Shown: one piece after another, positions 2,987 through 43,445 of the stretch
Numbering within the stretch: position 1 is the first letter of the stretch
Layout: each line of letters opens with the position of its first letter
Virus record (IMG/VR): IMGVR_UViG_3300037264_000321
Span: 1 to 44,561 of that record
Source: a virus
Direction: 5' to 3' (one strand)
Length of the DNA: 44,561 bases
Notes under the pieces: generated by a model
The model's input: only the letters and a program-made list of their open reading frames with translations
Told to the model about the DNA's origin: nothing
Database searches by the model: none
Translations under genes and position numbers: made by a program

Positions 2987-3814
2987 CTATACTCGGACCA
3001 AAACCTCGATGATATGGGTTGGAAGCAGGAGAGTTCCACCCTCCGGACCCCAGAGCCACAAGGACTCCCCAACCCACCCAGGAAGCTCTCCCATGGCCCT
3101 CTCTGCCTCGTTCAGGATGTCTGCCGCCCTCTCCAGGCTGAACTCGACGAACGGGCTCTTACGGGCTCCTAGAATGGCCCTATGACCCATTGGTGAGGTC
3201 GTCCCGAAGAGTAGACCCCGAAGATGCCCCTGTCGATACAACTCCGTCCAGCCCTCCACCAAATCAGTCCCGTCCGCCTCGGCTACCACAAAGCCATTCG
3301 TTCCAACATCCAAGACCCGAGGAGGTTTTGACTCTGCTGGAAGCCCAGGAAGAGAACCCTCCTGGATGTACCGTTGAAGCCATTCCACCACGGTCTTGAT
3401 CCGGTCCCCACGCCCCTCTCTACCTCCCAAGTAAGTCCTGGCAAAGCTGATGAACCTCGCCAGATCACGGTCGATGTGAGCTAACCCCGCTGGACCAAAC
3501 CGCCCCAAGTCGGCTGCAAACACCACCGAAGCTGTCGAAGATTGTATCGCCAACTTTCGATCCAGAAAAAGGGCCAGTAGAAGAACCTCATCAATGTCCT
3601 GAATATCTCGGGCCACCAACTTGATGGGTAGGGCTCGCCCAAAGATCAAGTCTCGGTAGAACCGCTGGAGTGCTGACTCCCCTGGACTATCCGGGTCCGA
3701 CCTGTAAACGAACGTCGTCTCTGAAGGCTCAAAATCTCCGAGAGCTACTACAGGCCCTTCCTGTTTGCTCGGAAGCGCTTCATCAATGACGACTTGAAGT
3801 TGAATCTCTTCCAC
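2987..3814 (-). CDS. Unknown protein (275 aa)
   Basis: The protein starts with GTG at 3814 inside the 3' end of the RNA ligase gene, overlapping it by 32 bases. A hydrophobic helix RDIQDIDEVLLLALFLDRKL (about residues 69-88) is followed by an acidic, aspartate-rich region (FAADLGRFGPAGLAHIDRDL). A further segment contains VLDVGTNGFVVAEADGTDL. No signal peptide is visible. The tight overlap suggests translational coupling to the RNA ligase. I do not recognise the family and give no function. Confidence 0.6.
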   Translation of the reverse strand: MEEIQLQVVIDEALPSKQEGPVVALGDFEPSETTFVYRSDPDSPGESALQRFYRDLIFGRALPIKLVARDIQDIDEVLLLALFLDRKLAIQSSTASVVFAADLGRFGPAGLAHIDRDLARFISFARTYLGGREGRGDRIKTVVEWLQRYIQEGSLPGLPAESKPPRVLDVGTNGFVVAEADGTDLVEGWTELYRQGHLRGLLFGTTSPMGHRAILGARKSPFVEFSLERAADILNEAERAMGELPGWVGESLWLWGPEGGTLLLPTHIIEVLVRV

Positions 3815-4511
3815 GAGAGGAACTTACACCAAGGTAACGGGCAACAACCCTATGGGCCAAACGTTTACGCTTGTTAGGAACGACTTGCTGTTGCATCCAG
3901 TGAACGTCCGTCTGAACGTGTTGGGCTCGCACGAACTTGGCCACATGCTTGTCGAAAGCGCTCATCGGAAAAGCCCCAGCATCCCGTACTACATAGCCCT
4001 CACTGGTCCCTTTGGAACTCAATAGGGATTTGAATGGATAGAGCTTCATCACCTTCTCGGTATCCCACTTGCCCTTCCACAGAACTGGAGCATGAGGGAG
4101 ATCAAGCAGATTCGCCCACTCCTCAACTTCGCTCCAAGGACGGGCATTGTTGGAACCATCAGCCACGCCAAAAACCACGAAGTAGTCAGGAAGGAGGTCA
4201 TATTCTATCGAGTGCTTGGCGTAGAGATTCTCTCCCATGATACGCCAACCGTCAGGGAAACCCATGCAACCCAGCTCCCTGGCCTTGCTCTTGACGTAAT
4301 CCCTCGAAGGGTGAGGCTTCGTCTCAAGACTCCGAGCGTGACATTCCCCTGTCGAGTAGATCGTGGTGTTCTCACCATCCATCTTCTCGGTCACTATCAC
4401 CTGCTTGCCACCGAACATACGCTCAATGGCTTCCAAGGTGTGCGTCTTGTCGTCGTCCGTCGCCCCTTGTGACCAGGGAAGATGAAACGTCCGTGGGTAC
4501 TTAACTTTCAC
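3783..4511 (-). CDS. RNA ligase of the Rnl2-like nucleotidyltransferase superfamily (242 aa)
   Basis: The enzyme should seal nicked RNA by ATP-dependent ligation. The nucleotidyltransferase motifs appear in order: motif I EKMDGEN with the AMP-accepting lysine K43, motif Ia RSLETKPHPSR (60-70), motif III DYFVVFGV (109-116), motif IV SEGYVVR (170-176) and motif V AKFVR (191-195). The last 30 residues form a basic tail containing RVVARYLG, a short peptide that recurs in other proteins of this window. Translation starts at GTG. RNA ligases are common in large phages, where they repair tRNAs cut by host anticodon nucleases. That role is inferred here; a DNA-nick substrate is less likely. Confidence 0.85.
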   Translation of the reverse strand: MKVKYPRTFHLPWSQGATDDDKTHTLEAIERMFGGKQVIVTEKMDGENTTIYSTGECHARSLETKPHPSRDYVKSKARELGCMGFPDGWRIMGENLYAKHSIEYDLLPDYFVVFGVADGSNNARPWSEVEEWANLLDLPHAPVLWKGKWDTEKVMKLYPFKSLLSSKGTSEGYVVRDAGAFPMSAFDKHVAKFVRAQHVQTDVHWMQQQVVPNKRKRLAHRVVARYLGVSSSRGRDSTSSRH

Positions 4512-6092: not shown

Positions 6093-9000
6093 TCAATTCA
6101 CCTTCCACTCATCCGGAACAACTCCCTCGAACTCAGAAGCCGTCTTTTCCAGGATGCCCTGTACCTCAGGTGATGCCTCAATCGACGGTGTGGCCCCAGG
6201 CTTCGGAACGTTCTCTCCTGTGTGAAGTCCAGCCTCATCAACGAACCGAGAGATACCTGCTGCCTTTCCACCCACACTCTTCGGACAGATAACCGTAAGA
6301 TTCATCGCTGCCCGAGTCAGAGCAACATACCCAAGCCGACGCTCTGACTCCATCTCTTCAGGATTCGGTGGAGGCGGAGGCTGTCCAGGCTTTACAGGAG
6401 GCTCAAATGGGAACTTCCCTTTGGGCATCGAGACGTAGCAATTTTTCCATTGTGCGCCCTTCACGCTGTGAACCGTGCCCAAGTAGACTCCGGGAGGGGC
6501 CTTACGTTGCTCCGGAGGAAGAGCTGCCTGGTCCTTGTCCCACTTCGTGATGTCAATCCGAAGCTCACGGGCTCGCTGACCATAACGCTCCATCTTGGCC
6601 TTGAACCCAGTCGGAGTGTTCGGGTCCGTCAAGAGATCCCCGGGATCAGTTGGATCTTTCTTGGTCAGCTCGAAGAGGAATGAGATATTCCCAAGACCCT
6701 CGGTATCATCTTCGTCATCCTCGTCAGCATCCTCACCAACAGCATCTCGAAGATCCGCTTTGAGGCTATCTCGGAAAGTCTGCTCAACGTAGTTGGCCTT
6801 ACCGGAAATGGGGTCGGTAACGGCTACTAGTCCGGTCATTCCAAGGATTGAATCGAAGAGGTCTTTGGTGGTGAACTCTGGATTGGCCGAATTCGCCTGC
6901 ATCTCAGAGATGCTTCCACCGATCTCTTCCAGCTTCTCGATAGCCTTGTTGAACTTGAATCCTGCCCTCTGCTTGGTCAACTTCTCAGCCAAGACGGACT
7001 GGAAGAAAGGATCCCCAAGAGCCACAAGAGGATTGACCACTTTGACATCCTGCCCGTTCCTTCGAGCGTAGGCAGAGATAGCGTCTTGTACAGCAGTGAC
7101 ACCTGCGTCAGGAGCGATGAAGAAGCGATTCGGCTTGTTGATAACCTCGCCTAGAGCTTGCTGCATCTTGGAGAAGTCGTCCCCCGTTGCAAGCTGAACA
7201 TAACTCAGGAAGGCTTTGGTCTCAGGCGAACCAAGGAAGCTCGAAGCTCCCTTGCGAGCATAAGGAACACCACGGATGATGCACGCCGTCTCGAAAGCGT
7301 GCTGCTCCTTGTTGGTCCTGGTCAGGATGGCATTGTCGGCTACATCCCCACCAGCCTCAATGTTGGACTTGATCTCCTCAACAGCATCCAAGGCTGCCTC
7401 AGCCTCATCCCCTGGATTGAAGACCCGAATGGATCCAACACCACGAGACTTAGCAGAAGACGGAACAGCCTCCATCTGGAGTCGTCCCTCATTGTGAGAG
7501 ATGAGTTTGTTAGCTGCATCGACGATCTCCGGTTGACACCGGTAGTTCGTCCGAATCGTCCTGACCTTCCAATCCTCTTTCTGAGCCCTACCCAAGAAGA
7601 TGTCCGGACGGGCTCCTCGGAATGTGTAGATACTCTGATTCGGGTCTCCCACCATCCAAACGGATTTACCGTCTGAACCGTCTTTGATGTGCTCGGACAT
7701 CATCTCTACGATGTCGTTTTGGCACTGGTTCAAGTCTTGGCACTCATCGACCAAGATGTGGTCAAACATCCCCTGCAAGGTCTTTCGGACCATCGGCTCT
7801 CTCTTCAGAATACTTCTGAAGATGATCAGCATGTCGTCGAAATCACCGAGCCTCTGATTGTTGGGGCGCCAACGACCCATGAACGACTCGTAACCCTTCG
7901 AGGTCCGACATGGTGGTTTCCAGCCAGGAATAGCCCCCTTCAAGCCTTCGTACATCTCATACCAAAGAGCTGAGTCTGGATCTCCACCCCCACCCATCGG
8001 ACTGAGAGCATTTTGCATAGCCTCAGCAGGGGTCACGTTGTTCCCAGACCACTTGCTCTTCGCCATGAGCACATTCTTGAGCTTCGGGACTTTCTTCTCC
8101 TGAGGCGTGTCAGGGGGAAAGCACTCACTCCAAATCCGCTGAACAGCCCGAGCCACAGCTCCTCCACCCTGGACGAATCCGCCACGGTCCTGCCCGAGTC
8201 CCATAGCCGACCGCTCTTGCGGAGTCCCGTACTCCCCAATGAACTTCCGGAACAGGGAGTGCATAGTTCCAACAGACATCTGTTGAAGCGTTTCCCCACT
8301 CGTAGCTGAGCCAATCTTCTGCTTCAGCTCATTGGCAGCCTTCGTGTTGAAGGAGGTAACCAAGATCCGACTCGGAAAGACCCGACGCTCCTTGACCAGA
8401 TACTCCACCCGAGCAACCAGGGTTGTGCTCTTTCCGCTCCCTGCTCCAGCCGCCACCAAAACCCGCCCGTCCGTAAGAGCTGCTGCCCTTTGCTCATCAT
8501 CAAGCTTGCGGAGTGGATCTGGAACATTCTGAGGCTTCGAGGGGTCACCCAAAGCAGCAGCAGCAGCCGCTACAGCGATACCCACGACCTCAGACTTGCT
8601 CGGGGGCCTATCGGGCTCCCCTGAAGTCTCCAGGGCCTTCCTAGCGGCATTGGTAGCGTCCTGCTCGACCTGAGAAAGAACATCCGACTGGGTTGTCTGA
8701 GCAACCTCTACTTCTTCGGCCCCACGAGCCCCTGCGGATTGAACCTGCTGATTCAGAAGGACACTGGCCTGATCCACCGCTTCCTTGGATCCAGCATCAA
8801 CAGCATTCTTCGGGATCTCCCTCTGCACAGCCGTCTTGGCTGCTAGATCAATCCAGGTCTTGAGCCTGGTATTCCGCATCTGGATAGCAGCGAACTTGTC
8901 CAGGGCTGCGTCTGCATCGTCCATCATGGACGCTGCAATCGCTTCCCGAATCTCTTTGAGGGCTCGGTTCGTTTGGAACACCGCCCGCTGAGTTCCCGGC

Positions 9001-9383
9001 CCCCCACGGGACAGGATCGTCCGAAGCATGAGAGCACGACGACCCGCATTCGTGGGATTGATAGCTCGGATCGCCATCGCCCGAGCCAGCATTTTCTTGT
9101 GAACCTCCGTCGGGAGGCTCTCATTCAGAACCTTCTGCAAACCCTCTGAGATCATCGCATCCGAGATCCGAAGGAGACGAACGCCACGCATGGTGACTTC
9201 ATCCTGAGGTTCTTCGTTCGTCGCCTCCTCAACGTACCGCATGTAGGTATCGAGGGAGAGCAGGAAAACGACGTACTCGGCAACTTGGAGGTCACCAATG
9301 GCTTCGTCGTCAGGGTCCACCTGAGCCACGACGTTTCGGCTCAAAGCTACCTGGACGGCCTTTCTGATTTGGCTTTCTTCCAC
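6093..9383 (-). CDS. UvrD/Rep-family superfamily 1 DNA helicase with a long N-terminal extension (1096 aa)
   Basis: This should be an ATP-driven 3'-5' DNA helicase. The SF1A motifs are present in order: Q motif around LDDEQRAAA (294-302), Walker A GAGSGKST (313-320), Walker B LVDECQD (544-550), motif III VGDPNQSIYTFRGA (578-591), motif IV TIRTNYRCQPEIV (609-621), motif V TVHSVKGAQWK (970-980) and motif VI YVALTRAA (1019-1026). Residues 1 to about 285 form an extra helical, alanine-rich region not found in UvrD itself. An acidic stretch (DEDDEDD, near 887-893) lies in the 2B region. The start is GTG with GAAGG upstream. It probably serves replication, repair or recombination. Its place among virion genes is unusual. 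Confidence 0.9.
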   Translation of the reverse strand: MEESQIRKAVQVALSRNVVAQVDPDDEAIGDLQVAEYVVFLLSLDTYMRYVEEATNEEPQDEVTMRGVRLLRISDAMISEGLQKVLNESLPTEVHKKMLARAMAIRAINPTNAGRRALMLRTILSRGGPGTQRAVFQTNRALKEIREAIAASMMDDADAALDKFAAIQMRNTRLKTWIDLAAKTAVQREIPKNAVDAGSKEAVDQASVLLNQQVQSAGARGAEEVEVAQTTQSDVLSQVEQDATNAARKALETSGEPDRPPSKSEVVGIAVAAAAAALGDPSKPQNVPDPLRKLDDEQRAAALTDGRVLVAAGAGSGKSTTLVARVEYLVKERRVFPSRILVTSFNTKAANELKQKIGSATSGETLQQMSVGTMHSLFRKFIGEYGTPQERSAMGLGQDRGGFVQGGGAVARAVQRIWSECFPPDTPQEKKVPKLKNVLMAKSKWSGNNVTPAEAMQNALSPMGGGGDPDSALWYEMYEGLKGAIPGWKPPCRTSKGYESFMGRWRPNNQRLGDFDDMLIIFRSILKREPMVRKTLQGMFDHILVDECQDLNQCQNDIVEMMSEHIKDGSDGKSVWMVGDPNQSIYTFRGARPDIFLGRAQKEDWKVRTIRTNYRCQPEIVDAANKLISHNEGRLQMEAVPSSAKSRGVGSIRVFNPGDEAEAALDAVEEIKSNIEAGGDVADNAILTRTNKEQHAFETACIIRGVPYARKGASSFLGSPETKAFLSYVQLATGDDFSKMQQALGEVINKPNRFFIAPDAGVTAVQDAISAYARRNGQDVKVVNPLVALGDPFFQSVLAEKLTKQRAGFKFNKAIEKLEEIGGSISEMQANSANPEFTTKDLFDSILGMTGLVAVTDPISGKANYVEQTFRDSLKADLRDAVGEDADEDDEDDTEGLGNISFLFELTKKDPTDPGDLLTDPNTPTGFKAKMERYGQRARELRIDITKWDKDQAALPPEQRKAPPGVYLGTVHSVKGAQWKNCYVSMPKGKFPFEPPVKPGQPPPPPNPEEMESERRLGYVALTRAAMNLTVICPKSVGGKAAGISRFVDEAGLHTGENVPKPGATPSIEASPEVQGILEKTASEFEGVVPDEWKVN

Positions 9384-11191: not shown

Positions 11192-11626
11192 ATGGAACAG
11201 AACAACGACCCAGTATGGGTTACGAGAGCTAAGAAGCTACAAGCGTGGCTTCGAGGTGCTGGTCCTCAAGCCGTTCCTAGCATCAACAAATGGGCGAGAG
11301 GGCGAAATCTCACATCGACGCAAGTGATCAACATCCTCGCCTATGCGGACGGGATCTACGTCCAGTACATCAAGGGGAGATGGTGGGCCTCCCCTGTGAC
11401 GAACGAAGATTTTAGCAAGGCGTGGAAGGAAATGTCTGCTCGCTCACCTGAGGAATGTCAGGATGAATCCGAATCTGTCGAGGCCGTAAGTCAGCAGCCA
11501 AAGACAGTTCATCCAACCCAGGACGAGGGTGGTCTATCCGACACGCCTCATCGACCAGCAAAGTCCACATTATCCGAGGGATCTCCACAAGACCTGTCTC
11601 CCAAGCCTGGATTTCCGGAACAGTGA
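11192..11626 (+). CDS. Small unknown protein downstream of the J-domain gene (144 aa)
   Basis: The ATG follows the J-domain stop by two bases (TGA-GG-ATG), so translational reinitiation is likely. Residues 1-85 are compact and contain PSINKWARGRNLTSTQVINI, which could be a small helix-turn-helix. Then comes YADGIYVQYIKGRWWAS. The last 60 residues are acidic, Ser/Pro-rich and low complexity. That tail lies antisense to the minus-strand gene ending at 11412, with about 215 bases of convergent overlap, so the natural end of the functional protein may be uncertain. The function is unknown. Confidence 0.5.
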   Translation: MEQNNDPVWVTRAKKLQAWLRGAGPQAVPSINKWARGRNLTSTQVINILAYADGIYVQYIKGRWWASPVTNEDFSKAWKEMSARSPEECQDESESVEAVSQQPKTVHPTQDEGGLSDTPHRPAKSTLSEGSPQDLSPKPGFPEQ

Positions 11627-11921
11627 CTCCTAAAAACGTCGCCGTGTCCAATTGAGTTTGCTTGATGGCCTGACGGATGAACGCAAAGAACTGTCCGTTG
11701 ATCATTCCCCAACGACCCAAGGTGGTAGCTGCTCGAAGGAATGAGGCATCCCTGGCAGCCTGAGGGAAATCTGACGGCCCAGAAGCCGTGGAAGTCCCTT
11801 GAAGAGTAGCCACGAACACAATACCTGTTGTTCCAACCGGCATGAGAAAGTCACCAACGACAGGTATCCCAGCCCGAACTGGGTAGATGACCGTCCCTGG
11901 AGGTTTAGGAAGAACGGGCAT
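11412..11921 (-). CDS. Unknown virion-region protein with an XRE-like helix-turn-helix segment (169 aa)
   Basis: GAAGAGG precedes the ATG at 11921. The N-terminal part is Pro/Gly/Thr-rich and beta-like (PVRAGIPVVGDFLMPVGTTG). Residues about 80-125 read like a Cro/XRE helix-turn-helix: FIRQAIKQTQLDTATFLGVT followed by VPEIQAWETGLVEIP. The C-terminal 40 residues overlap the convergent plus-strand gene. Its first 17 bases overlap the previous gene. The mix of a beta-rich head and an XRE-like segment is odd. It could be a regulator or a virion protein that has absorbed the fold. Confidence 0.55.
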   Translation of the reverse strand: MPVLPKPPGTVIYPVRAGIPVVGDFLMPVGTTGIVFVATLQGTSTASGPSDFPQAARDASFLRAATTLGRWGMINGQFFAFIRQAIKQTQLDTATFLGVTVPEIQAWETGLVEIPRIMWTLLVDEACRIDHPRPGLDELSLAADLRPRQIRIHPDIPQVSEQTFPSTPC

Positions 11922-12450
11922 CTACCTCTTCGCCCTCGATGATGACAGGATTTGTCGTCGGCTTGACCACAATCTGCTCGTCACTGAACAACACCAGGTC
12001 GTAACCCTCTTCGATAGCAAGGCGATCAACGGCATGAACCCACTGGATAGGGTTCTCCAGAATGAAGCCCTGAAACTCTTGGAGCTTGGACGTGTCTCCT
12101 TTGAGTGAGTGCTTCAATTCGCTCTCACAAACGAAGTCGAAAAGTCCTGGAGGAGCTGCTTCGGCTGTAACGGAAGCTACCAGGACCCGAGCGTTAGGCT
12201 TTGCCGTAAGCCTCGTGACCCGAGGGCCATACCACCGACGAACGTAATCTGGGTCGAAGGCGGCGTAGAAACCCCAACCGTACCAACCATCGAAGAGTCG
12301 ATCCTTGATGTCTTTCACGACGGCCTTGCCAGCATGAAAGAACGTGGGGACCTCCCGACCACGAATCTCGTAATGGGCGGTCTGGACGACGCTAGGTCTC
12401 AAGGAAGCCAGAACCCATCTGGCGGCCACTTTCCTAGCTAACGTCGGCAT
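11905..12450 (-). CDS. Possible ADP-ribosyltransferase-fold protein (181 aa)
   Basis: The sequence pattern resembles small ADP-ribosyltransferases of the H-Y-E class: TFFHAGKAV (H39) near the start, a Gly/Tyr-rich segment WYGWGFYAAFDPDYVRRWYG (56-75) that could give the nicotinamide-site tyrosine, and EGYDLVLFSDEQIVVK (148-163) with a possible catalytic glutamate at E158. Such enzymes transfer ADP-ribose from NAD+ to host proteins, and T4 uses Alt and ModA this way. The N-terminus carries ARKVAARWVLA, the short peptide shared with other proteins here, which could target it into the virion. The assignment is tentative; no search was possible. Confidence 0.55.
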   Translation of the reverse strand: MPTLARKVAARWVLASLRPSVVQTAHYEIRGREVPTFFHAGKAVVKDIKDRLFDGWYGWGFYAAFDPDYVRRWYGPRVTRLTAKPNARVLVASVTAEAAPPGLFDFVCESELKHSLKGDTSKLQEFQGFILENPIQWVHAVDRLAIEEGYDLVLFSDEQIVVKPTTNPVIIEGEEVDARSS

Positions 12451-13084
12451 CCACTAGGTCAAGATCAACAAGAGCTTCCCAGACCGAACGAGGAGGCCCT
12501 GGGATTCGAGTAACAGGTGTCCAACTCTGAGATCGCTTCTTGGCAATCAAGGCGTCCAAGATGCGCTTGGCTGCCGGATCCACAGGATGTGTTCTATCTA
12601 TGAGGTCAAACCGACGTTGGCGAACCTCGTCAATCCTAATGGTGGGGTTCGAGGATAACTCGAACTCTGGAACAACGACTCGTCTGACCGCTCTAGGATT
12701 GACGATACCAACTCCTGGCTCCTCCCGAACAGTAAACCCTACTGGAGGAGCCGTCACAGGCAGTATTCGCCTTCGCTCTTCGTTGGAGAAAGCTAAGATG
12801 TCCAGGTAGTCTTGCTCGCTAACGAACAAGCGTTCTTGAGGAAGCGGCATCCTCTCTAACGTTTCTCGAATCGCAGCCAGATCAAGTCGAGTGTTCTGGA
12901 GGTCCCCTGTGAATGTACCCGTCCCGTTGGCGAACGTGCCCGTTCGTTCCAAGACGCTGAGAATCTCACGATCCTCTAACTCCTGGATTTCCCGAGCCAT
13001 CCTGTTGATGTGACTCTCCAGGTCATGAGTGTACCGGGCAACGGCCTCGGTTATGTCTGGCAACCTCTCAGGAGAGGGCATCAC
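12434..13084 (-). CDS. Protein built from a permuted, shortened copy of the major capsid protein (216 aa)
   Basis: Three stretches match the major capsid protein encoded at 42567-43445, in rotated order. Residues 34-98 resemble capsid 128-198. Residues 114-138 (GVGIVNPRAVRRVVV) resemble the capsid C-terminus, 265-290. Residues 134-165 resemble capsid 86-118; RRFDLI is identical and about 17 of 33 positions agree (my hand alignment). The capsid N-terminus (1-85) has no counterpart. The start may be GTG 13084 or ATG 13081. It could be a minor head protein, a decoration or vertex factor, or a degraded duplicate. It sits between the ADP-ribosyltransferase-like gene and a short helical gene. Confidence 0.65.
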   Translation of the reverse strand: MMPSPERLPDITEAVARYTHDLESHINRMAREIQELEDREILSVLERTGTFANGTGTFTGDLQNTRLDLAAIRETLERMPLPQERLFVSEQDYLDILAFSNEERRRILPVTAPPVGFTVREEPGVGIVNPRAVRRVVVPEFELSSNPTIRIDEVRQRRFDLIDRTHPVDPAAKRILDALIAKKRSQSWTPVTRIPGPPRSVWEALVDLDLVDADVS

Positions 13085-13103: not shown

Positions 13104-13655
13104 TCAGTCCCACCAGAGACGAAGCATGTCACCTTGGATGGTCGCTTCGTCGGCCTTCATAATGTCCGGACCAGTCTGCATACGAAACCAATCAAGGACA
13201 TCCGGCTCGCCCTTGATGTAAAGGGCAGGAGACAACTCACGAGCTGCCTGAACCTTGATCCCCTTGGCGTCTGGGTCCAGAAGCCCAGCAGCAACCTTCC
13301 GAATGGCAAAACCGTTGTACCTCGGACAAATGTCCGTCATCAGCTCGATGTACTGCTGAGGAGACAACCACTGGTGGCTGCGGTAATGAAGGTTCCTGAC
13401 CTGGAGGGAAACATTCTCCCACACACGCTTGAGATCCTGTTGTCTACTGGTCGCTGTGTCGTAGGCGTGAGGGGCGAACTCCTTGACCCTCTGATAGATT
13501 TCAAACCGGAGCCTGGGATCAAAGAGGGTTTGCTTGGGCCAAGCATCAGCATAGGCCCAAGCAAGTTCCATGTCTTTTCCAGCCGCCGAAGCAGCCTCTT
13601 TCGAGACTGCTTCGGCAAACCTGGCCGCTACTTTTACCGAGAGCTGGTCAATCAC
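13104..13655 (-). CDS. Unknown protein with an N-terminal VAARF peptide (183 aa)
   Basis: It starts with GTG at 13655 after AGGAT. The first 25 residues (VKVAARFAEAVSKEAASAAG) form a likely amphipathic helix carrying the recurrent R/K-V-A-A-R motif. The remainder is helical with many aromatics, including LAWAYADAWPKQTLFDPRLR and VRNLHYRSHQWLSPQQYIEL. The gene begins four bases after the tail sheath stop, so it is probably transcribed with the sheath. I do not recognise the family. Confidence 0.6.
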   Translation of the reverse strand: MIDQLSVKVAARFAEAVSKEAASAAGKDMELAWAYADAWPKQTLFDPRLRFEIYQRVKEFAPHAYDTATSRQQDLKRVWENVSLQVRNLHYRSHQWLSPQQYIELMTDICPRYNGFAIRKVAAGLLDPDAKGIKVQAARELSPALYIKGEPDVLDWFRMQTGPDIMKADEATIQGDMLRLWWD

Positions 13656-13659
13656 CTAC

Positions 13660-16600
13660 TCAGATCCTAGCTCGCACGTTGAACGTGAGGACGAGGTACA
13701 AGAGCGGGAAGATCGGCTGGTAGAACGCCTCGAACCGTAGAACGGTCGGGTCTTCAGCGTCAACCTCGGCCGCAATCCCAGTGTAGGCTGCAACAATCTC
13801 AGCCTGGACTAATTGATTGAAGAGCGAGGTCATCGTGACCTCGACTTCACTCGTGCGACTGGCCAGGAACTTGGTGCCTACGAACGCATCAAGGACGATA
13901 CGGCTCTGCTGCTGAACAAAGTCTGCAATCTGAGTGACCGTCGGAAGACGGGTCAAAACATTCGACATGTCCGTGGTGAGACCCTGGCGAACCCGGATGA
14001 TCGGATCCAAGTCCTCCATGATCGTGACACCAGCCACAGCCGTCTGGTTGGCTTCCACCGGGTCCAGAATCCTCGGAAGCCGAGTGAAGCCCTGAATCCT
14101 ACGACGAGTGTACGGAGTGGCAACATCCACAGCCGGGCTCACCACAGCTCCGGCTACAGCCGCAGCAATGAAAGTCCCGTCCACGAGTTGCTCAAAGCTC
14201 TCACCAACCTCATTGTTGAGAGTGATCACCGCCGAGTCCGGATAGATCGCAATCATCCGGTTCGAGAGCAGAGCCTTGGCAATCGTCTGAGCGTTCGTCG
14301 GAGACGTTCCCGACGCAAACCCAATGAAGCCCATACGCTCAGCCTGGTTGCGGATGTTCGACTGCGTTTCGACGTGCTGCATCAGGAAGTTGTAGACCTG
14401 TGTGCTCGTCGATAGCGGGACAATGATGTCAGGCTTCACCTGACCAGGCAAAGGAATGGAGAGTTCCTGGATAGCTTCGATGAACGAAGCGTCCGATGCC
14501 TGGTTGGTGTTCACCACCTTGAGTACCTGCTTGATACCCACAAGCACGGCACCGTTCAGAATGGCCAAGAAGGCAGCCAAACTGACCCGGTTCTCAGCAC
14601 TGAGACGACCGAAGTTTGCCTCGATGCTCTTGAACTGCTGGAACAACCGAGCCGTGAAGTCCTGCTTCCGGAACCGGTAGGTGATGTAGTAGAAGTCTCC
14701 GATTGCCGGCTCCAAACCACCAGGATTGAATGTCCGAATGGTTGCCGTATCGTTGACTCCAACATTCACCGTATCCGTAACGATAGTTTCCAGACCGGGG
14801 ATGGAGAGGTACGGGATGGCCGGATTGACCTTCCAGGTCGTGGACACAAACATCGTGAACGACCCACCCGGAGTGTAGCCACCAACTACCGATGCGAGGA
14901 TGGTGAATCGAAGACCAGTACGGACATCCGTGTAGGTCTGACCAGGGGCTCCTGTGCCAGACGACCCCAGAGGATGCGTGGAAGTAATCGTGTAGGAATC
15001 CCTGGTGTCTTCACCGTTATCACCAGAAGTTCCTGGGACAATTCCTGTTCCAGTGGTCTCATTGAAGGCACTGGCCGAACCAGTGGTGAAGGCCACACTC
15101 GACGTAGCTGCACCCGTCGTGAGGGACTCGATAGTCAGATAGGTTTGACCATCGAGGACGCTCGCATAAGCCACACCAGCAGCCAAGAAGCCCGCGGTGT
15201 CATTCAGAGCGTTGACCACCTCTTGAACAGAAACGTTCACGGAGCCAGCGGAAGCACCCTCACTGAGGCCAAGAACAGTGTTGGCTGTTCCTCCCAAAAT
15301 GGTGATGTTGGAGCCAGCATCGTTGGTCGTGCTGGTGAGCCTCAGCTTGTCGAGATTGGCTAAGGTACCAGCAGAAGCTACGGTAGCCAAACCAGGAACA
15401 GCATTGATGGCCACAACCACGGCTGCCGTAGTTACGGCTGGACCAGTGGGAAGAGAGACCAGATAGTCAATGCCATCAACCCGAAGCTGGAGTTCATCCG
15501 TAATCCCTAGATCGATAGAGAACGGCCCTACTTCTGACCCAAGAATCGTGGCCGGCTTGTTGATAGCCCGAGGAGAGCCAGAAGCCGACTGGAATGTGTC
15601 GAATCCAATGACATTCTCCACCGTGCCCTGACGGACAGACACCACAGAGACATGATCAAAACCACCCGGGAGAGCTGCTGGAGTGGAGATGCTCCGGATG
15701 ATGAAAATGGCATCACCCAAAGCACCACCGATCTGAACAAAGCTCGCCTGACCAGCACCGATGACAGCATTGATCGAAGCCACGATGGCTGCGGGGGTGT
15801 TCAAACCCACAGTGAATGTCACAGTGTAGTCAACACCATCAACGGTCAACTCCAACACGTTGTTCGGAGAAGCGGGGATGGTGATCATGCCACCACCGTC
15901 CACCACCACATGGTCGCTCACTAGATAGCCACGCCGAGACGTGACCAAAGTTGTCGTGAATGGACCACCGTTTAGAGTCGTTCTCCAGGTATCCGAGAAG
16001 GTTGCGAAGAACGAATAGGGCTGGGCTCCAGTGTTTGTGAACACTGCGTTCTTGGCTAGAGCCGTGGAGAAGGTCGCCGTCACGGTCTCATCAACCGGAG
16101 TCCCGGCACCCGTGTGGAAGGCATCCGGAACCTGCTCCACACCACGAGGCCACTGGACGATCTCTGGAAGACCCGTCTTGACCCCAAATCTCACCTGTCG
16201 AAGATTGCTTTGGGTAGCCGTCGAGAGAACCTCGAACTGCCCAAAACCAACAGCACCAGCCACCTTGTTCGTCAAGATGTAGGTGTCGTCAACAATCCGG
16301 TTGTACCAGAAAGTGCAGAACGCCTTGTGATCCGGTGGAACCGGGTTCTTGAGCGTGATGACCCTGGTTGAGGAATCAACCTCAATGACTTCCACGACTG
16401 AACGACCAAGAGCATCTCGAAGCGTCCTGCCCGTGTAGACGATCACCAGGTCAGGACGATTGGTGCTCAAACCAATCCGCTGGTTGGTGATAGCCAGGTA
16501 GGTAGACTGACCCAGTGGAGTGTCTCGACCGTTACCCGTCGTTGGGACATCCGGAAGGATGAACTTGGTCGTAGAAACCACAGCCGGAACAATCGTCGTA

Positions 16601-17904
16601 TCCACGAATCGAGTTGCCTCGACTAGGAATTGACGATCATCCACCAAGGTGGGGATAATCTGGGTGTCGTCAAACACCTCAGCACCAGGAGACCTCAGGG
16701 TAGAAGCCACCGAGACGCTGGTTCCCCAGTGAACCACCGAAACGTCCAGGCTCGGATTCGAGATGACGAAATCCTGCTCCTGAATGAAGTCTGACCGACC
16801 CGGAGAAAACCCGCACCGGATGACGCTCGTGACCTGCGTGTTCGGTAGGAAGTCGAACGTGTCCTGCCAGGTGTTGAAGTAGTATTGAATCGTGACCGTA
16901 GAGCCTGGAGCCGGGGCCGAGGCCAGAGTCACGATTCCGTTTGAGCCGTCCACAGCCGACGGGATAACCTGGACTCCGTTGACCTTGGCAACCACCTTGC
17001 TCGGGTCTGTGGTCGTAATACCACCGTCAGTGCCATCGACAATGGGCCTCTGGAAGACTCGGAAGTCCCTGTTTCGAGTCGTCGAGGTGCTGTTGGCAAA
17101 CCCAAGGGCTCCGTTGGCGTTGCCAATACCAATCAAAATTGACTGGGCAGCAAAAAGCCTGACATGATCCCTGCCCTGGTTGTCCGTGAAGACCAGGGTC
17201 GAAAGACCCGAGATGAGAGCTGCATCGATCAAAGCCTTGACCGCTGCTGCTGTGTACCCAGCCGGAGGACTGGCAGCAAAGGTGATGGTGCTTTCCGCAC
17301 CATCTACAGTGATCACGAACGTGTCTGTCACCCCAGCAACGACCGTGAACGGAGCGTAGGCCGGAGTCGTGAGAACAGCCTGCGTTGAGGTCACCTGCTC
17401 GGAGAGATCATCCGTGATAATCGTATCGGAGCGGTGGAAGTAGTAGGTGCAACGGACATCATCCCCAGGCTGCGGAGGAACCTGAAGAACGACGTACCCA
17501 TCGTTACCTTGAACACCACCCACGGCAACAGGGCTGCCATTGATGGTAACGGAAACAGCCCTGGAATCATTGGTCACACGACCAAAGCCCTGGCCATCCA
17601 CGACAGGGAAGTTCCGAACCCGGAACTTCGTCAAAAGACCATTGGCTGGCCCGAGAAGAGGATTGCTCGGATTTGTCTCGTCCACGACGAAACGCTGGCT
17701 GACATCTTCCCGAACAATCTGCTGATCGAGGTTCGAACTTGAACCACGGACCATCTCAAGATCGTTCTGCTCCAGCTCTTCTTGACCCACTCCAATGACG
17801 AAGGGGATACGGAGGCCCGCTACCAAATTGGCTGCGTTCGCCTCAGTCAGGCTGCGAGTGTAGACTCCCGGGGGAACATACGTTACGAAGGGACCGAGTG
17901 CCAT
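13660..17904 (-). CDS. Tail sheath protein, unusually large with inserted repeat modules (1414 aa)
   Basis: The sheath polymer contracts to drive the tail tube through the host envelope. The N-terminus (YVPPGVYTRSLTEANAAN) is typical of contractile sheath proteins, as is the C-terminal domain from about residue 1080, with SNRMIAIYPDSAVI, IQGFTRLPRILDPVEANQTA, a helix DFVQQQSRIVLDAFVGTKFL and the final strand LLYLVLTFNVRARI. Sheath proteins are usually about 400-700 residues. Here residues 40-1080 hold extra beta-rich modules, some repeated (three VDG-type modules and two YYF-type modules). AAGGA precedes the start. The extra domains probably decorate the outside of the tail. Confidence 0.85.
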   Translation of the reverse strand: MALGPFVTYVPPGVYTRSLTEANAANLVAGLRIPFVIGVGQEELEQNDLEMVRGSSSNLDQQIVREDVSQRFVVDETNPSNPLLGPANGLLTKFRVRNFPVVDGQGFGRVTNDSRAVSVTINGSPVAVGGVQGNDGYVVLQVPPQPGDDVRCTYYFHRSDTIITDDLSEQVTSTQAVLTTPAYAPFTVVAGVTDTFVITVDGAESTITFAASPPAGYTAAAVKALIDAALISGLSTLVFTDNQGRDHVRLFAAQSILIGIGNANGALGFANSTSTTRNRDFRVFQRPIVDGTDGGITTTDPSKVVAKVNGVQVIPSAVDGSNGIVTLASAPAPGSTVTIQYYFNTWQDTFDFLPNTQVTSVIRCGFSPGRSDFIQEQDFVISNPSLDVSVVHWGTSVSVASTLRSPGAEVFDDTQIIPTLVDDRQFLVEATRFVDTTIVPAVVSTTKFILPDVPTTGNGRDTPLGQSTYLAITNQRIGLSTNRPDLVIVYTGRTLRDALGRSVVEVIEVDSSTRVITLKNPVPPDHKAFCTFWYNRIVDDTYILTNKVAGAVGFGQFEVLSTATQSNLRQVRFGVKTGLPEIVQWPRGVEQVPDAFHTGAGTPVDETVTATFSTALAKNAVFTNTGAQPYSFFATFSDTWRTTLNGGPFTTTLVTSRRGYLVSDHVVVDGGGMITIPASPNNVLELTVDGVDYTVTFTVGLNTPAAIVASINAVIGAGQASFVQIGGALGDAIFIIRSISTPAALPGGFDHVSVVSVRQGTVENVIGFDTFQSASGSPRAINKPATILGSEVGPFSIDLGITDELQLRVDGIDYLVSLPTGPAVTTAAVVVAINAVPGLATVASAGTLANLDKLRLTSTTNDAGSNITILGGTANTVLGLSEGASAGSVNVSVQEVVNALNDTAGFLAAGVAYASVLDGQTYLTIESLTTGAATSSVAFTTGSASAFNETTGTGIVPGTSGDNGEDTRDSYTITSTHPLGSSGTGAPGQTYTDVRTGLRFTILASVVGGYTPGGSFTMFVSTTWKVNPAIPYLSIPGLETIVTDTVNVGVNDTATIRTFNPGGLEPAIGDFYYITYRFRKQDFTARLFQQFKSIEANFGRLSAENRVSLAAFLAILNGAVLVGIKQVLKVVNTNQASDASFIEAIQELSIPLPGQVKPDIIVPLSTSTQVYNFLMQHVETQSNIRNQAERMGFIGFASGTSPTNAQTIAKALLSNRMIAIYPDSAVITLNNEVGESFEQLVDGTFIAAAVAGAVVSPAVDVATPYTRRRIQGFTRLPRILDPVEANQTAVAGVTIMEDLDPIIRVRQGLTTDMSNVLTRLPTVTQIADFVQQQSRIVLDAFVGTKFLASRTSEVEVTMTSLFNQLVQAEIVAAYTGIAAEVDAEDPTVLRFEAFYQPIFPLLYLVLTFNVRARI
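15265..15519 (-). repeat. Sheath insert module, copy 3
   Basis: This encodes sheath residues about 796-880, beginning ELQLRVDGIDYLVSLP and ending TVLGLSEG. It matches copies 1 and 2 in layout: a strand with VDG, a helix with AINAVPG, then strands ending in an LG motif. This is the pattern of flagellin hook-IN-like beta domains. Confidence 0.6.
15598..15858 (-). repeat. Sheath insert module, copy 2
   Basis: This encodes sheath residues about 683-769, beginning VLELTVDGVDYTVTFTVG, then AAIVASINAVIG and ending ENVIGF. It is the clearest relative of copy 3, which follows it after about 26 residues. Confidence 0.6.
17095..17337 (-). repeat. Sheath insert module, copy 1
   Basis: This encodes sheath residues about 190-270, beginning VTDTFVITVDGAESTITF and ending NGALGF. 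It is separated from copies 2 and 3 by about 400 residues. It is flanked on both sides by a second module type that ends in YYF (residues 90-163 and 270-349). Confidence 0.55.
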
Positions 17905-19730: not shown

Positions 19731-20750
19731 TCAGGATTCCTCCGACGCAAGGATCAACATACCCTCAGCTACGGCAGTCATGGGATCCCTGGCTGCCCTA
19801 ACCTCACTGATTTCGATGGGGAAACCACGCTTCCGAATCTGGTCAAACTCGTCTTGGAAGATGGGCAGGAAGCCGCCCACCAAGGAGGTTCCACCAGAGA
19901 CTACAAAGGGGATGGGTCCCGGAAGAATCACGGCGTTCTGAACCTTCCGAAACTGGGCTGCAATGTTGTCCAGACAGTACCGGATGAGGGCTCGAATGTA
20001 GAGCACGATGGCCTCTTGTTCCCGTCCCTTCGGGTTCACAAGGTCCACTCCCTTCTCCTTGAGGGAGCACATCTGAGAAGCTGTTCTACCTGTGGCCTTG
20101 GACGAATGGAGGTCTACCCAGTCCCCTCCACGGGCTACAGAGAACTCCAAACCCTTCACAGCTACGGCTGCTAAAGCCACGTTGCACATACCAGCCCCGA
20201 AGCTCACGGCCAAGCCACTGAAGTCCTCCGGAGCACACTGACTGTAGATGATCGCCATAGACTCGTTCATCGGGTGCGGTGTGTAACCCAACTCGGAGAG
20301 AATCTTCCGAAAAATCTCCGTGTGGTACACGATGTCCTGCTCTTGGTCATCAATGGGAGCCGCAGGAACGCTGTAAAAACAATGCTCACCCTCCCCCTCA
20401 GGGATCTCACCGCCATCAGAAAGAACGGTGTTGAGAAGCGTCTTCAAAACCGCTTGAGCATCCAGCTCTCCTGCTGCGATAACTCCCCGACTAAGAGGAC
20501 GCCGAGCATCCCTCTTGAAGAGGTTCGCCATCGTCAGTGCAGAATCCCCAACGATGAGGAAGTTCTCTCCAAACTCGATGAAGTCCGCCTTGGAGAGTCT
20601 CAAACTCTTCTCAGCGTCTTTTTCTACATCAAGGAAAGCGTCTCGTATACGTCGGAAGGAGGGTTTTCCGTTCGCTCCGTTACGTGCCGAGACAATGTTC
20701 ATCGTGCCGATGTCTAATCCAACACCGGTCTTGACCTGAGTTTTAGCCAT
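19731..20750 (-). CDS. Actin-like ATPase (339 aa)
   Basis: This is a member of the actin/Hsp70/ParM/MreB superfamily. Phosphate-1 motif GLDIGTMN is at residues 11-18, a connect-1-like NESMAIIYS begins at 162, phosphate-2 motif GLAVSFGAG at 179-187 and the adenosine motif VVSGGTSLVGGF at 283-294. I chose the ATG at 20750 because GAGG sits five bases upstream; an in-frame start at 20789 would add 13 residues and overlap the previous gene. ParM-like filaments move DNA or organise phage replication sites. No ParR-like adaptor or parC-like repeats are visible nearby. It could instead be a virion or assembly ATPase. Confidence 0.85.
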   Translation of the reverse strand: MAKTQVKTGVGLDIGTMNIVSARNGANGKPSFRRIRDAFLDVEKDAEKSLRLSKADFIEFGENFLIVGDSALTMANLFKRDARRPLSRGVIAAGELDAQAVLKTLLNTVLSDGGEIPEGEGEHCFYSVPAAPIDDQEQDIVYHTEIFRKILSELGYTPHPMNESMAIIYSQCAPEDFSGLAVSFGAGMCNVALAAVAVKGLEFSVARGGDWVDLHSSKATGRTASQMCSLKEKGVDLVNPKGREQEAIVLYIRALIRYCLDNIAAQFRKVQNAVILPGPIPFVVSGGTSLVGGFLPIFQDEFDQIRKRGFPIEISEVRAARDPMTAVAEGMLILASEES

Positions 20751-20778
20751 CTGATCCTCATCTGATTTTGATTTGGGT

Positions 20779-21408
20779 TTACCGGGCATAGCTGTACGGA
20801 GTTGCGTCTGCTCTCTGCTTCAAAAGATAGACGAACTCCTCATGCTTGTCAGCGATGCCTTGAAGCAGATTCTCTGTGCCATCTGACAGAACACCAGCCC
20901 CAGAAAGCTCCTTCAGGACAACCTTGATAGCTTCCAGGACGGACTGTTCCATCTGAAGGCTCAATTGAACCATACCATTAGGCCCTTCGTCGGCCTTAGT
21001 TCCTTCGTAGCAGTTAGAGATACACCAGGCCAGATGTTTGGCCTGGATGACAGGATCTACCAGACTTGGAGACCCCAAACCAATCGTTCTTTCTGCCACT
21101 TGGTCAAGAAACGGTACAGAATCGTTGTAGAGCCGGTCAAAAAGCAGATGATCCCCGTAGTAGCTCTGCCCTCTGGTCTGCCAATGATGCGTCTGGTGCA
21201 TCCAGGAGGCAGATTTGAGAACAGTCAGCAGAGCAGCCAGCCAGCCTAAGGCCCCCTGGTACTCGGAGGCCATCCGACCCAAGACATCGCTGGAAGCCTG
21301 CTTCACGACGAGGGGCCTCTCCGGAAGAAACGGTGGACCATGCCGTAAAGGGTCGAACCTTGTAGGATCAACCCAAACAGCTTGGATTTGGGAGTCGAGA
21401 GAATCCAT
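20779..21408 (-). CDS. Dps/ferritin-like protein (209 aa)
   Basis: Dps proteins form 12-subunit shells that oxidise and store iron and can coat DNA. The ferroxidase residues are present with spacing identical to E. coli Dps: H75, H87, D91, D102 and E106, corresponding to H51, H63, D67, D78 and E82. The surrounding motif HHWQTRG and the helix VPFLDQVAERTIGLG are typical. The final helix NLLQGIADKHEEFVYLLKQ also matches the family. It carries a 45-residue N-terminal extension and ends in PYSYAR. Its start overlaps the previous stop by one base (TGATG) and it lies next to the actin-like gene. Confidence 0.8.
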   Translation of the reverse strand: MDSLDSQIQAVWVDPTRFDPLRHGPPFLPERPLVVKQASSDVLGRMASEYQGALGWLAALLTVLKSASWMHQTHHWQTRGQSYYGDHLLFDRLYNDSVPFLDQVAERTIGLGSPSLVDPVIQAKHLAWCISNCYEGTKADEGPNGMVQLSLQMEQSVLEAIKVVLKELSGAGVLSDGTENLLQGIADKHEEFVYLLKQRADATPYSYAR

Positions 21409-32078: not shown

Positions 32079-32933
32079 TCACCCAAGAGCACAGGCATCC
32101 TTGTAGCCTTGCTCCTGCATGTTCTGGATGGCCTTGCGGTCGTCAAACTCCAAGGCATCCTCGACCAAACCACCCTTAGGTTCTACTACCCGGAATGGAA
32201 TCTGCCGATATTTGCCACCAAGTTGGGCTAAATCGTTCTTCAACCCGCAGACCTGAAGGTCTGTCCTGATAATCTCATCGCTCTGCACCTCAATGGCCCG
32301 AAGAGCGTAGGAAAGGGTCTTCTTGCCCTTGGCTACCCACGGCTGGGACTTTTCAGAGCTGGAACATAGGACGATGTCTACCTGAGTAGCTCCAAGACGT
32401 ATGGCTTCTCCAAGAGGCGTTACGTGACGTACCCCTCCATCTGTCCACGTCTTGCCCCCGATCCCCACCGGAAGAAAGAAAGCTGGGAAGCTGGCAGAGG
32501 CGTAGACCCACTTGGCAAAATCTGGGTCCTGCTCCGAAGCAGCATAATATTCCCCGGTTTCCCAGCAGGTAGCCCCTACCCGGACCTTTCTACCAGACTT
32601 CTTGGTCGCTTCTACGTCAGTCTCTTTACTGACCCATTTCATGAGCGGGTCAGAGTTGAAAACACTAGGCTTCCAAAGAGCTGCCAATTTCCCCAAGAAC
32701 CAAGACTTTCGGATGCTGGCATTATCCACCCGGTCCCAGGTTGTCCTGAGCCGATGAAATGCCTCTGCTGGGCTACCGAAGCCAACCTGCGAAAGAACTG
32801 CCACATTGAGAGCCCCCACGGAAACCCCGCAAAGAATCTCGTAATCAAGCTGGTCTTCCAGCATCCACTTCTTGAGGACGCCTACCTGGTAGGCACCCTT
32901 CACACCGCCACCAGACAAAACTAACGCTCGCAT
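32079..32933 (-). CDS. Patatin-like phospholipase (284 aa)
   Basis: Patatin-like enzymes hydrolyse acyl chains of phospholipids with a Ser-Asp dyad. All hallmarks are visible: oxyanion loop SGGGVKG near the start, nucleophile elbow GVSVG with the serine at residue 38, and DGG with the catalytic aspartate at 165. I prefer ATG at 32933 over TTG 32939 because AGAGG is then nine bases away. No signal peptide is present, so it acts in the cytoplasm or is carried in the virion. It could help lysis or alter host membranes. It is followed by tail-type genes and preceded by a secreted nuclease gene. Confidence 0.85.
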   Translation of the reverse strand: MRALVLSGGGVKGAYQVGVLKKWMLEDQLDYEILCGVSVGALNVAVLSQVGFGSPAEAFHRLRTTWDRVDNASIRKSWFLGKLAALWKPSVFNSDPLMKWVSKETDVEATKKSGRKVRVGATCWETGEYYAASEQDPDFAKWVYASASFPAFFLPVGIGGKTWTDGGVRHVTPLGEAIRLGATQVDIVLCSSSEKSQPWVAKGKKTLSYALRAIEVQSDEIIRTDLQVCGLKNDLAQLGGKYRQIPFRVVEPKGGLVEDALEFDDRKAIQNMQEQGYKDACALG

Positions 32934-32972
32934 GGACAAAGACCTCTAAGGAGGTGTGGTCCATAAATGAAC

Positions 32973-39129: not shown

Positions 39130-39687
39130 TCAGAGCTTCTTCAGCTCTTGCTTGATCTCTTTGGCCTTGGGACCACGCCAAGAACTTGCGTTGTTCAGAA
39201 AGTAGAGGACGATGCTTTTGGCCGAGTCAGCCCCATAGTTATCCGTGATCTTGTCAAGATCCATCATCGCTTCCAAGTAAGGCTTGGCTGCGAAGTTGAC
39301 GTTCTTCCAATCCTTCCGGATGTCTTGAGCGATCTCATAGATCGGCCTGGTCTGGACCGCCTGGAGATACCTAGAAGCCACACGCTGAGCCGTCGTTGCT
39401 TCCTTCTCAGATCCTAGGTCACTCAGGTTGTGTTGTTCCATTTGGTCTATCACCCATTTCGCAGCATCCATGCCGCCCTTGTCATCATAGAACTTGTGAG
39501 GTCGCCCACCCTGGCCCTTGAATGGCTTGCCCCTCATCCGATCCACTTCAATCCGACCCTTGGGAGTTTGAACATAGAACTCCCCGTAGCCCATGTGTTC
39601 AACACTGACGCCAGGAAGCTTCTGGACTCGGTTCACGAAATCAGTATCGACGTAGATTGACCCGTCTGGAGCGACGTAGTGGCCCAT
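39130..39687 (-). CDS. Unknown two-domain protein with RVASRYL peptide (185 aa)
   Basis: I chose ATG at 39687; a TTG at 39699 is possible. The first 85 residues contain a beta part (YVQTPKGRIEVDRMRGKPFK). RVASRYLQ at 102-109 is one of the recurrent VA-R peptides. It is followed directly by a helical C-terminal domain with RPIYEIAQDIRKDWKNVNFA, YLEAMMDLD and LYFLNNASSWRGPKAKEIKQ. That C-terminal domain reads like a widely shared phage module whose function I do not know. Confidence 0.6.
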   Translation of the reverse strand: MGHYVAPDGSIYVDTDFVNRVQKLPGVSVEHMGYGEFYVQTPKGRIEVDRMRGKPFKGQGGRPHKFYDDKGGMDAAKWVIDQMEQHNLSDLGSEKEATTAQRVASRYLQAVQTRPIYEIAQDIRKDWKNVNFAAKPYLEAMMDLDKITDNYGADSAKSIVLYFLNNASSWRGPKAKEIKQELKKL

Positions 39688-39712
39688 GCTAAGGATCAAT
39701 CACAAGAAGAAC

Positions 39713-42566: not shown

Positions 42567-43445
42567 TTAGAACCGAGTGACCACCAGCCTGGTCAACCCA
42601 CGGGGGTTGAAGGCACCGATGCCCACGTTCTCAAAGCACGAGAACCCGATGGTACGAGCCTTCGGATCATCAGCCGAGAGAACGGTCAGTTCCGTGCGAA
42701 CAGGGAACCTGCCGAAGTTCTCGGGCTCGGCGCATACATACACGAAGCCGGCTGGAACCAGCCTGCTTGTGATGATCTGAGCGCCCCAGAGGGTCGCCTG
42801 AAGACCAGTCTTCAGGAGGGTCGCCTGGCTCTCGATGTCCAGGATGTCCCGGCCGAACTTCCGGATGTCAGCGTAGTCAACCGCATTCATGTAGATGCGG
42901 GCAACACGCAGGTCGTGACGCTCGACCTCAGCAAAAGCATCCGCAAGGACGCTCGGGCTGATTGGAGCAACCACGGCAATGTCCGGGTTGGTCTGACCAG
43001 GAAGGGTGTCGAAGCCCGAGACAGCAATGCTGTCTAGAACCGCAAACACACGCTCATCCTCGGCTGCCTGAATCTGAGCCTTCGCAAGATCCTGCGAACG
43101 CTCAATCAGGTCAAACCGACGCTCCTTGATCTGGGTGAGGGGGATCTCCGGGTTCGAGGCAATCTCGAACAACGGGAAGATCACCCGGCGTGGCTTCTGG
43201 ATGGCGAGGATGTTTTCACCCTCTTCACCAACCACGAATGCCGTGACTTCCGGATCCTTGTCGTAGATCGGAAGGGCTCCATCCGGGAGCTGCTCGACCA
43301 AGAAGGTCTTGCGACCAACAGCCGTGTAGTCTCGACGGAGACGGAGGGGTTGAATCATCGAGGCGGCCAACTTGGCACGCCCTGCCGCAGTACGAATGTA
43401 CTCCGAGATGATCTGCTGCTTGACTTCGTTTGATACCTGGTTCAT
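42567..43445 (-). CDS. Major capsid protein, HK97-fold type (292 aa)
   Basis: This protein should form the icosahedral head shell. Recognisable segments are FPLFEIASNPEIP and KERRFDLIERS (89-117), EDERVFAVLDSIA (129-141), VARIYMNAVDYADIRKFGRD (181-200), TGLQATLWGAQI (213-224), PAGFVYVCAEPENFG (231-245) and the end NVGIGAFNPRGLTRLVV. This order is that of a capsid family I know from many phages. AGGAG precedes the ATG. It follows the decoration protein gene by 12 bases. A permuted partial relative is encoded at 12434-13084. Confidence 0.85.
   Translation of the reverse strand: MNQVSNEVKQQIISEYIRTAAGRAKLAASMIQPLRLRRDYTAVGRKTFLVEQLPDGALPIYDKDPEVTAFVVGEEGENILAIQKPRRVIFPLFEIASNPEIPLTQIKERRFDLIERSQDLAKAQIQAAEDERVFAVLDSIAVSGFDTLPGQTNPDIAVVAPISPSVLADAFAEVERHDLRVARIYMNAVDYADIRKFGRDILDIESQATLLKTGLQATLWGAQIITSRLVPAGFVYVCAEPENFGRFPVRTELTVLSADDPKARTIGFSCFENVGIGAFNPRGLTRLVVTRF

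Follow-up and report, generated by a model that had tools for sequence, protein, structure and literature searches.

The window, the 44.6-kb virus record analysed here as a whole, encodes a 216-aa protein, P, which carries pieces of the major capsid protein (MCP) in rotated order. By sequence comparison the resemblance between P and the MCP is real and beyond chance. P is a working gene under purifying selection and, to judge from its distribution, an accessory and probably non-essential one. The larger finding, again as read from the sequences, is that the huge phages to which the window belongs cut up their capsid protein and reuse the pieces in accessory genes. The parts of P and of the MCP gene that supplied the pieces are listed below; the domain names given for P are taken from HK97-fold homology, with no structure of P behind them.

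12434..13084, minus strand: P, rotated MCP-derived gene, 216 aa (BLASTP, PHROG_2522, HHalign; two orthologs)
12752..13021, minus strand: P residues 22-111, start of the spine helix and part of the A domain, corresponding to MCP 114 to about 200 (HHalign and alignment)
12662..12751, minus strand: P residues 112-141, junction resembling both the MCP C-terminus (263-292) and the E-loop strand (65-93) (BLASTP, HHalign)
12575..12661, minus strand: P residues 142-170, E-loop exit and spine start, corresponding to MCP 94-122 (FELSSNP...RRFDLIDR; BLASTP, HHalign)
12449..12493, minus strand: P residues 198-212, C-terminal tag PRSVWEALVDLDLVD, common to accessory proteins of related phages
42567..43445, minus strand: MCP, 292 aa, source of the pieces, intact and separate from P (PHROG_2522 major head protein, E 1.2e-52)
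43092-43196, minus strand: MCP residues 84-118
42570-43091, minus strand: MCP residues 119-292

The MCP of the window shares 83% identity with its counterpart in a 485-kb uncultured phage, 47% with that of Tunturiibacter phage Tunturi_5 and 38% with gp27 of Bacillus phage G. The window is therefore placed among the phage-G-like huge phages. Directly downstream of the MCP gene lie ORFs which by eye resemble LAGLIDADG-type homing endonucleases, both in the window (40480-42411, minus strand, where the ORF is joined to a methyltransferase-like part) and in L036 (11050-12000, plus strand). In L378 (1501-2744, plus strand) a match to the phage-G-type MCP is spread over 1.2 kb and covers residues 60-197 only; this is possibly an interrupted MCP gene.

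The frame of P runs on the minus strand from 13084 down to 12434 and begins with GTG, with ATG as the next codon. BLASTP aligned P113-171 with MCP 65-123 (41% identity, E 5e-11) and P112-141 with MCP 263-292 (43% identity, E 2e-5). The PHROG_2522 profile matched P itself with E 1.1e-9, the best stretch being P25-100 on profile positions 153-226. When a profile of the three P orthologs was compared with one of 65 MCPs using HHalign, P116-170 matched MCP 69-122 (E 4.8e-11, prob 97) and P22-140 matched MCP 114-291 (E 1.8e-8, prob 95), and residues 1-112 of P by themselves matched the MCP with E 1.7e-6. The P profile also matched the phage G MCP sequence (PDB 6wkk) in two stretches with E 4.8e-13. 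The original prediction had proposed a comparison with shuffled sequences; in 100 column-shuffled controls for each segment the maximum scores were 16.9 for P22-111 and 20.6 for P142-216, and the real scores were 40.4 and 55.3. A recent duplication was ruled out, since the matched parts of P and the MCP share only some 40% identity.

The two alignments are non-collinear with both BLASTP and HHalign, and this bears out the original prediction of shortened, reordered capsid segments. When diverse MCPs were split at residue 118/119 and aligned with P, the 119-292 part fell on P27-141 and the 84-118 part on about P129-166. The MCP order in P is thus rotated at about residue 118, with the C-terminal part first and the N-proximal part second, so that the elements follow one another as spine helix, A-domain part, C-terminal strand, E-loop exit and spine start. 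MCP residues 1-68 are missing from P, as are about 60 residues of the A-domain/beta region beyond MCP about 200. The junction had been predicted to lie where the MCP has two similar short peptides, and P116-140 does align with both MCP 263-291 and MCP 69-93 in BLASTP and HHalign. As in a circular permutant, a C-terminal segment precedes an N-proximal one and both are homologous to a single protein; the permutation is incomplete in that the MCP N-arm is missing.

Compared with the HK97-fold MCP (PHROG_2522 / phage G gp27, PDB 6wkk), P is homologous over the spine helix, part of the A domain, the C-terminal strand and the E-loop exit, but it is rotated, is without the N-arm and about 60 A-domain residues, has an extra C-terminal tag and is accessory in its distribution. 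The profile match to the HK97 MCP family is significant, but the collinear full-length layout of N-arm, E-loop, spine, A and P domains is not found in P. Reordered segments in a naturally occurring HK97-like protein are already known from Bbp17, the MCP of BPP-1. There, however, alpha and beta elements are swapped non-circularly in a working MCP (PMC3863775), whereas P is cut inside the N-element. The BPP-1 study argued that the HK97-like fold allows only two topologies, its N-element being unable to take part in permutation (PMC3863775). P bears on this published argument: it may be an exception, or it may no longer have the full HK97 fold.

AlphaFold2 gave a mean pLDDT of 43.5 for P with the three ortholog sequences. 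With 41 rows, which included cut MCP fragments placed in sequence-derived registers so that the result is no independent proof, a low-confidence model was obtained (mean pLDDT 61.1, pTM 0.41). It contains a fairly confident long helix at 11-52 and a short mixed alpha-beta unit, and the junction at 109-141 has a pLDDT <50. Fold searches with the low-confidence models gave no match (Foldseek against PDB and BFVD; VIA-align).

The position of P in the genome is defined by the following neighbours.

13660..17904, minus strand: tail sheath, 1414 aa, upstream border of a variable slot (homolog of the annotated Tunturi_5 sheath)
13104..13655, minus strand: 183-aa protein upstream of P on the same strand, gap about 20 bp
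11905..12450, minus strand: 181-aa protein downstream of P, sharing 17 bp with it; resembles an ADP-ribosyltransferase by eye only
11412..11921, minus strand: 169-aa weakly HTH-like protein, found after P, directly or one gene on, in 3/3 phages
6093..9383, minus strand: UvrD/Rep-like helicase (by eye), downstream border of the variable slot

The 183-aa neighbour has no family match in PHROG or Pfam. The 181-aa neighbour has no Pfam match and does not adjoin P in L001 and L002, the two viral contigs in which orthologs of P were found (L001:9824-10630 and L002:9950-10669, 40-42% identity). Both orthologs lie near the same sheath gene and are followed by the same HTH-like gene. A sequencing or frame artefact was ruled out by the open frame and the conserved neighbours in three contigs. 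The sheath of the window has very large insertions, its 1414 aa standing against a 587-aa open frame for the phage G counterpart.

Comparison of P between L001 and L002 gave a dS of 0.84 and a dN of 0.21. The existence of two diverged orthologs with the resulting dN/dS of 0.25 shows P to be a working gene. It was considered that P might nevertheless be evolutionary debris, an MCP fragment captured by recombination in a large genome with no selected role for its MCP-like part. The many different MCP fragments in different contexts described below would suit such an origin, but the open frame of P is kept in three phages with dN/dS 0.2-0.25 and the MCP-like segment is among the conserved parts, and we regard debris as unlikely.

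P is rare among relatives. A search of 47 whole related records with the P profile found orthologs in only two (G001 and G002); as many of these records are fragmentary, absence is not established for every one of them, but several are 230-530 kb long. Profile scanning of viral contigs returned the same two orthologs and scanning of genome contigs none, and among named phages there was nothing beyond a short match to the RRFDLI segment, in phage G and an uncultured relative. No P was present downstream of the sheath in the about 23 relatives inspected. Where the sheath end could be located in relatives, the next genes were a UvrD/Rep-like helicase or unrelated genes, and P therefore occupies a variable slot bounded by sheath and helicase. 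Between the window and L001 the identity is 46% for P, 84% for the sheath and 99% for the MCP, and within the nearest group MCP identity is 93-100%.

These observations go against the suggestion in the original prediction that P may be a vertex or neck adaptor and hence belong to the virion structure. Its MCP ancestry and the nearness of its gene to the tail sheath would agree with such a part. An essential neck or vertex protein should be present wherever capsid and tail are the same, yet P is missing from most relatives with near-identical capsids and the same sheath. This patchy presence and the variable slot argue against an indispensable component, as does the fast evolution of P, and a vertex or neck role is now very improbable.

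P is not the only protein of this kind. With a cut-off of E <= 1e-5, a search of 50 records with the MCP found, apart from the intact MCP, 13 ORFs that carry pieces of it; the P orthologs account for two of these, and the 13 are spread over 10 of the 50 records. Tunturi_5, a cultured relative, has a candidate MCP-piece protein at 122448-122558. As a control the sheath, five times longer than the MCP, gave two borderline extra matches near 4e-6. The gene adjoining the MCP gave none at the cut-off and one match at 0.002 in 42 records. The two controls suggest that reuse of fragments is special to the MCP. The reused pieces come mainly from three regions, namely the N-arm (about 3-75), E-loop/spine (about 78-126) and A domain (about 159-253). 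P0004 (L118:4049-5131) is also rotated, with MCP 122-147 at 172-197 (E 1.1e-5) followed by MCP 83-118 at 251-285 (E 1e-9). In P0003 (L117) N-arm and E-loop pieces flank an insertion, and in L036:18416-18844 (minus strand) and L129:1917-2525 (plus strand) an N-arm piece is split by a Cys-rich, zinc-finger-like stretch. L125:1876-2784 and L126:1742-2650 (both plus strand) encode 302-aa proteins in which an Acb2_Tad1_hairpin (PF24729; E 7e-13 and 3e-11, respectively) is followed by two tandem MCP A-domain pieces. Proteins of this type are present in three contigs. MCP-piece proteins of these phages thus include some with the hairpin of Acb2/Tad1 sponge proteins, a domain known to block bacterial immunity, but P has no such domain.

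The E-loop/spine pieces (E-pieces) of P and the other proteins keep P91, F93, E94, P99, R110 and F111 in MCP numbering, residues which likely hold the local shape of the segment. Among residues invariant in the four MCPs compared, Q105 is altered in 6/6 E-pieces and K107 and E108 in 5/6. Such a pattern is as expected if shape is kept but not all capsid contacts.

E-loop, spine and N-arm usually make capsid contacts in the HK97 fold. The reused pieces include all three, and this brings in the main rival to the role proposed below for P. The MCP pieces could attach to the MCP or capsid lattice of the same phage and so bring the protein and its tag to assembling heads, as cargo, for decoration or to modulate assembly. 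Entry of a capsid-protein homolog into a helper capsid is known for Ccm of SaPIbov5 (PMC8569155). P, however, is without the N-arm and much of the A domain, the E-pieces lose MCP-invariant polar residues, and different proteins carry different MCP pieces, so that there is no single docking element. Docking to the capsid is rather doubtful.

Ccm also serves as precedent for another alternative, in which P would poison capsid assembly of co-infecting related phages or satellites, as a dominant negative or by redirecting capsid size. Like P, Ccm is a capsid-protein homolog used as an accessory protein, and capsid homologs that redirect assembly are known, Ccm redirecting phi12 capsids (PMC8569155). 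The accessory, fast-evolving nature of the P gene would also be consistent with interference. Unlike P, Ccm follows the helper capsid protein collinearly (24% identity), retains an HK97-like fold and forms pentamers (PMC8569155), whereas P is shortened and rotated, and such a reduced chain is unlikely to join the lattice. Since the MCPs of the nearest group are so similar, a poison would also affect its own carrier unless timed or diverged. Interference is improbable.

The reading we tentatively put first, while holding it with limited confidence, is that P is an accessory mimic of the MCP in the infected cell, perhaps a decoy for capsid-sensing immunity. The MCP gene would have been duplicated and then recombined or trimmed at the two similar peptides to give P, that is, two MCP pieces in rotated order with a C-terminal W-[ED]-x-L tag, which many accessory proteins of a related huge phage also carry. 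P would show the P-domain/E-loop/spine surface without forming capsids and would occupy a partner that otherwise binds the MCP. The first choice of partner would be a host immune sensor recognising capsid protein, and this choice is made because of the literature on capsid sensing and the Acb2/Tad1 fusion in other MCP-piece proteins. Capsid proteins are repeated triggers of bacterial immunity. CapRel SJ46 recognises an MCP, and the contact is predicted to lie on the P-domain sheet and spine helix (PMC9712102). An MCP is also what staphylococcal Thoeris responds to, with escape changes in the E-loop and P-loop (PMC11312562). When phages deleted for acb2 escape CBASS, the escapers map to the gene of the major capsid protein (PMC10419184).

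Several points weigh against the decoy. There is no known defence system in the host, a PADLOC search with P and its neighbours returned nothing, and P has no PADLOC or Pfam family. P itself lacks an anti-defence fusion and the fused proteins use a different MCP piece. The models of P are too poor to show that an MCP surface is preserved. Moreover, what staphylococcal Thoeris detects seems to be the MCP hexamer (PMC11312562), and a fragment might fail to mimic it. A wider form of the mimic proposal, rather doubtful at present, is that phage-G-like huge phages maintain a whole set of capsid mimics (N-arm, E-loop/spine and A-domain pieces, some rotated, some fused to anti-defence domains) that would blind capsid-recognising sensors. 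If true, copied and rearranged capsid decoys would be a counter-defence strategy of which no report was found in the literature searched. Even without a decoy role, P shows clearly at the sequence level that an MCP has been cut up, rearranged and used again.

The C-terminal peptide PRSVWEALVDLDLVD in which P ends is nearly invariant among the orthologs, and its W-[ED]-x-L tag is common to several MCP-piece proteins. Similar W-containing C-terminal peptides are found in P0003, P0004, P0005, L128 and L130, in most of them with acidic residues after. In G019, of which 398 kb was read, the strict motif occurs in the last 22 residues of 22 of the 635 predicted genes, compared with about one expected from the internal frequency of the motif. 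The peptide on the G019 genes (L170-L182), on P0001 and on other MCP-piece proteins resembles PT-x-W-[DE]-R-[LI]-x-x-acidic. In G021 no gene end has the strict motif, and a Pfam search with ten tagged proteins gave nothing above the cut-off.

Two further observations concern the window itself. An actin-like ATPase (19731-20789, minus strand) and a patatin-like phospholipase (32079-32939, minus strand), both recognised by eye, lie among the structural genes. A different short motif, [RK]V[AV][AS]R[FWY], recurs near an end of several unrelated small proteins (3783-4511, 11905-12450, 13104-13655 and 39130-39699, all minus strand) and is possibly a targeting or cleavage signal.
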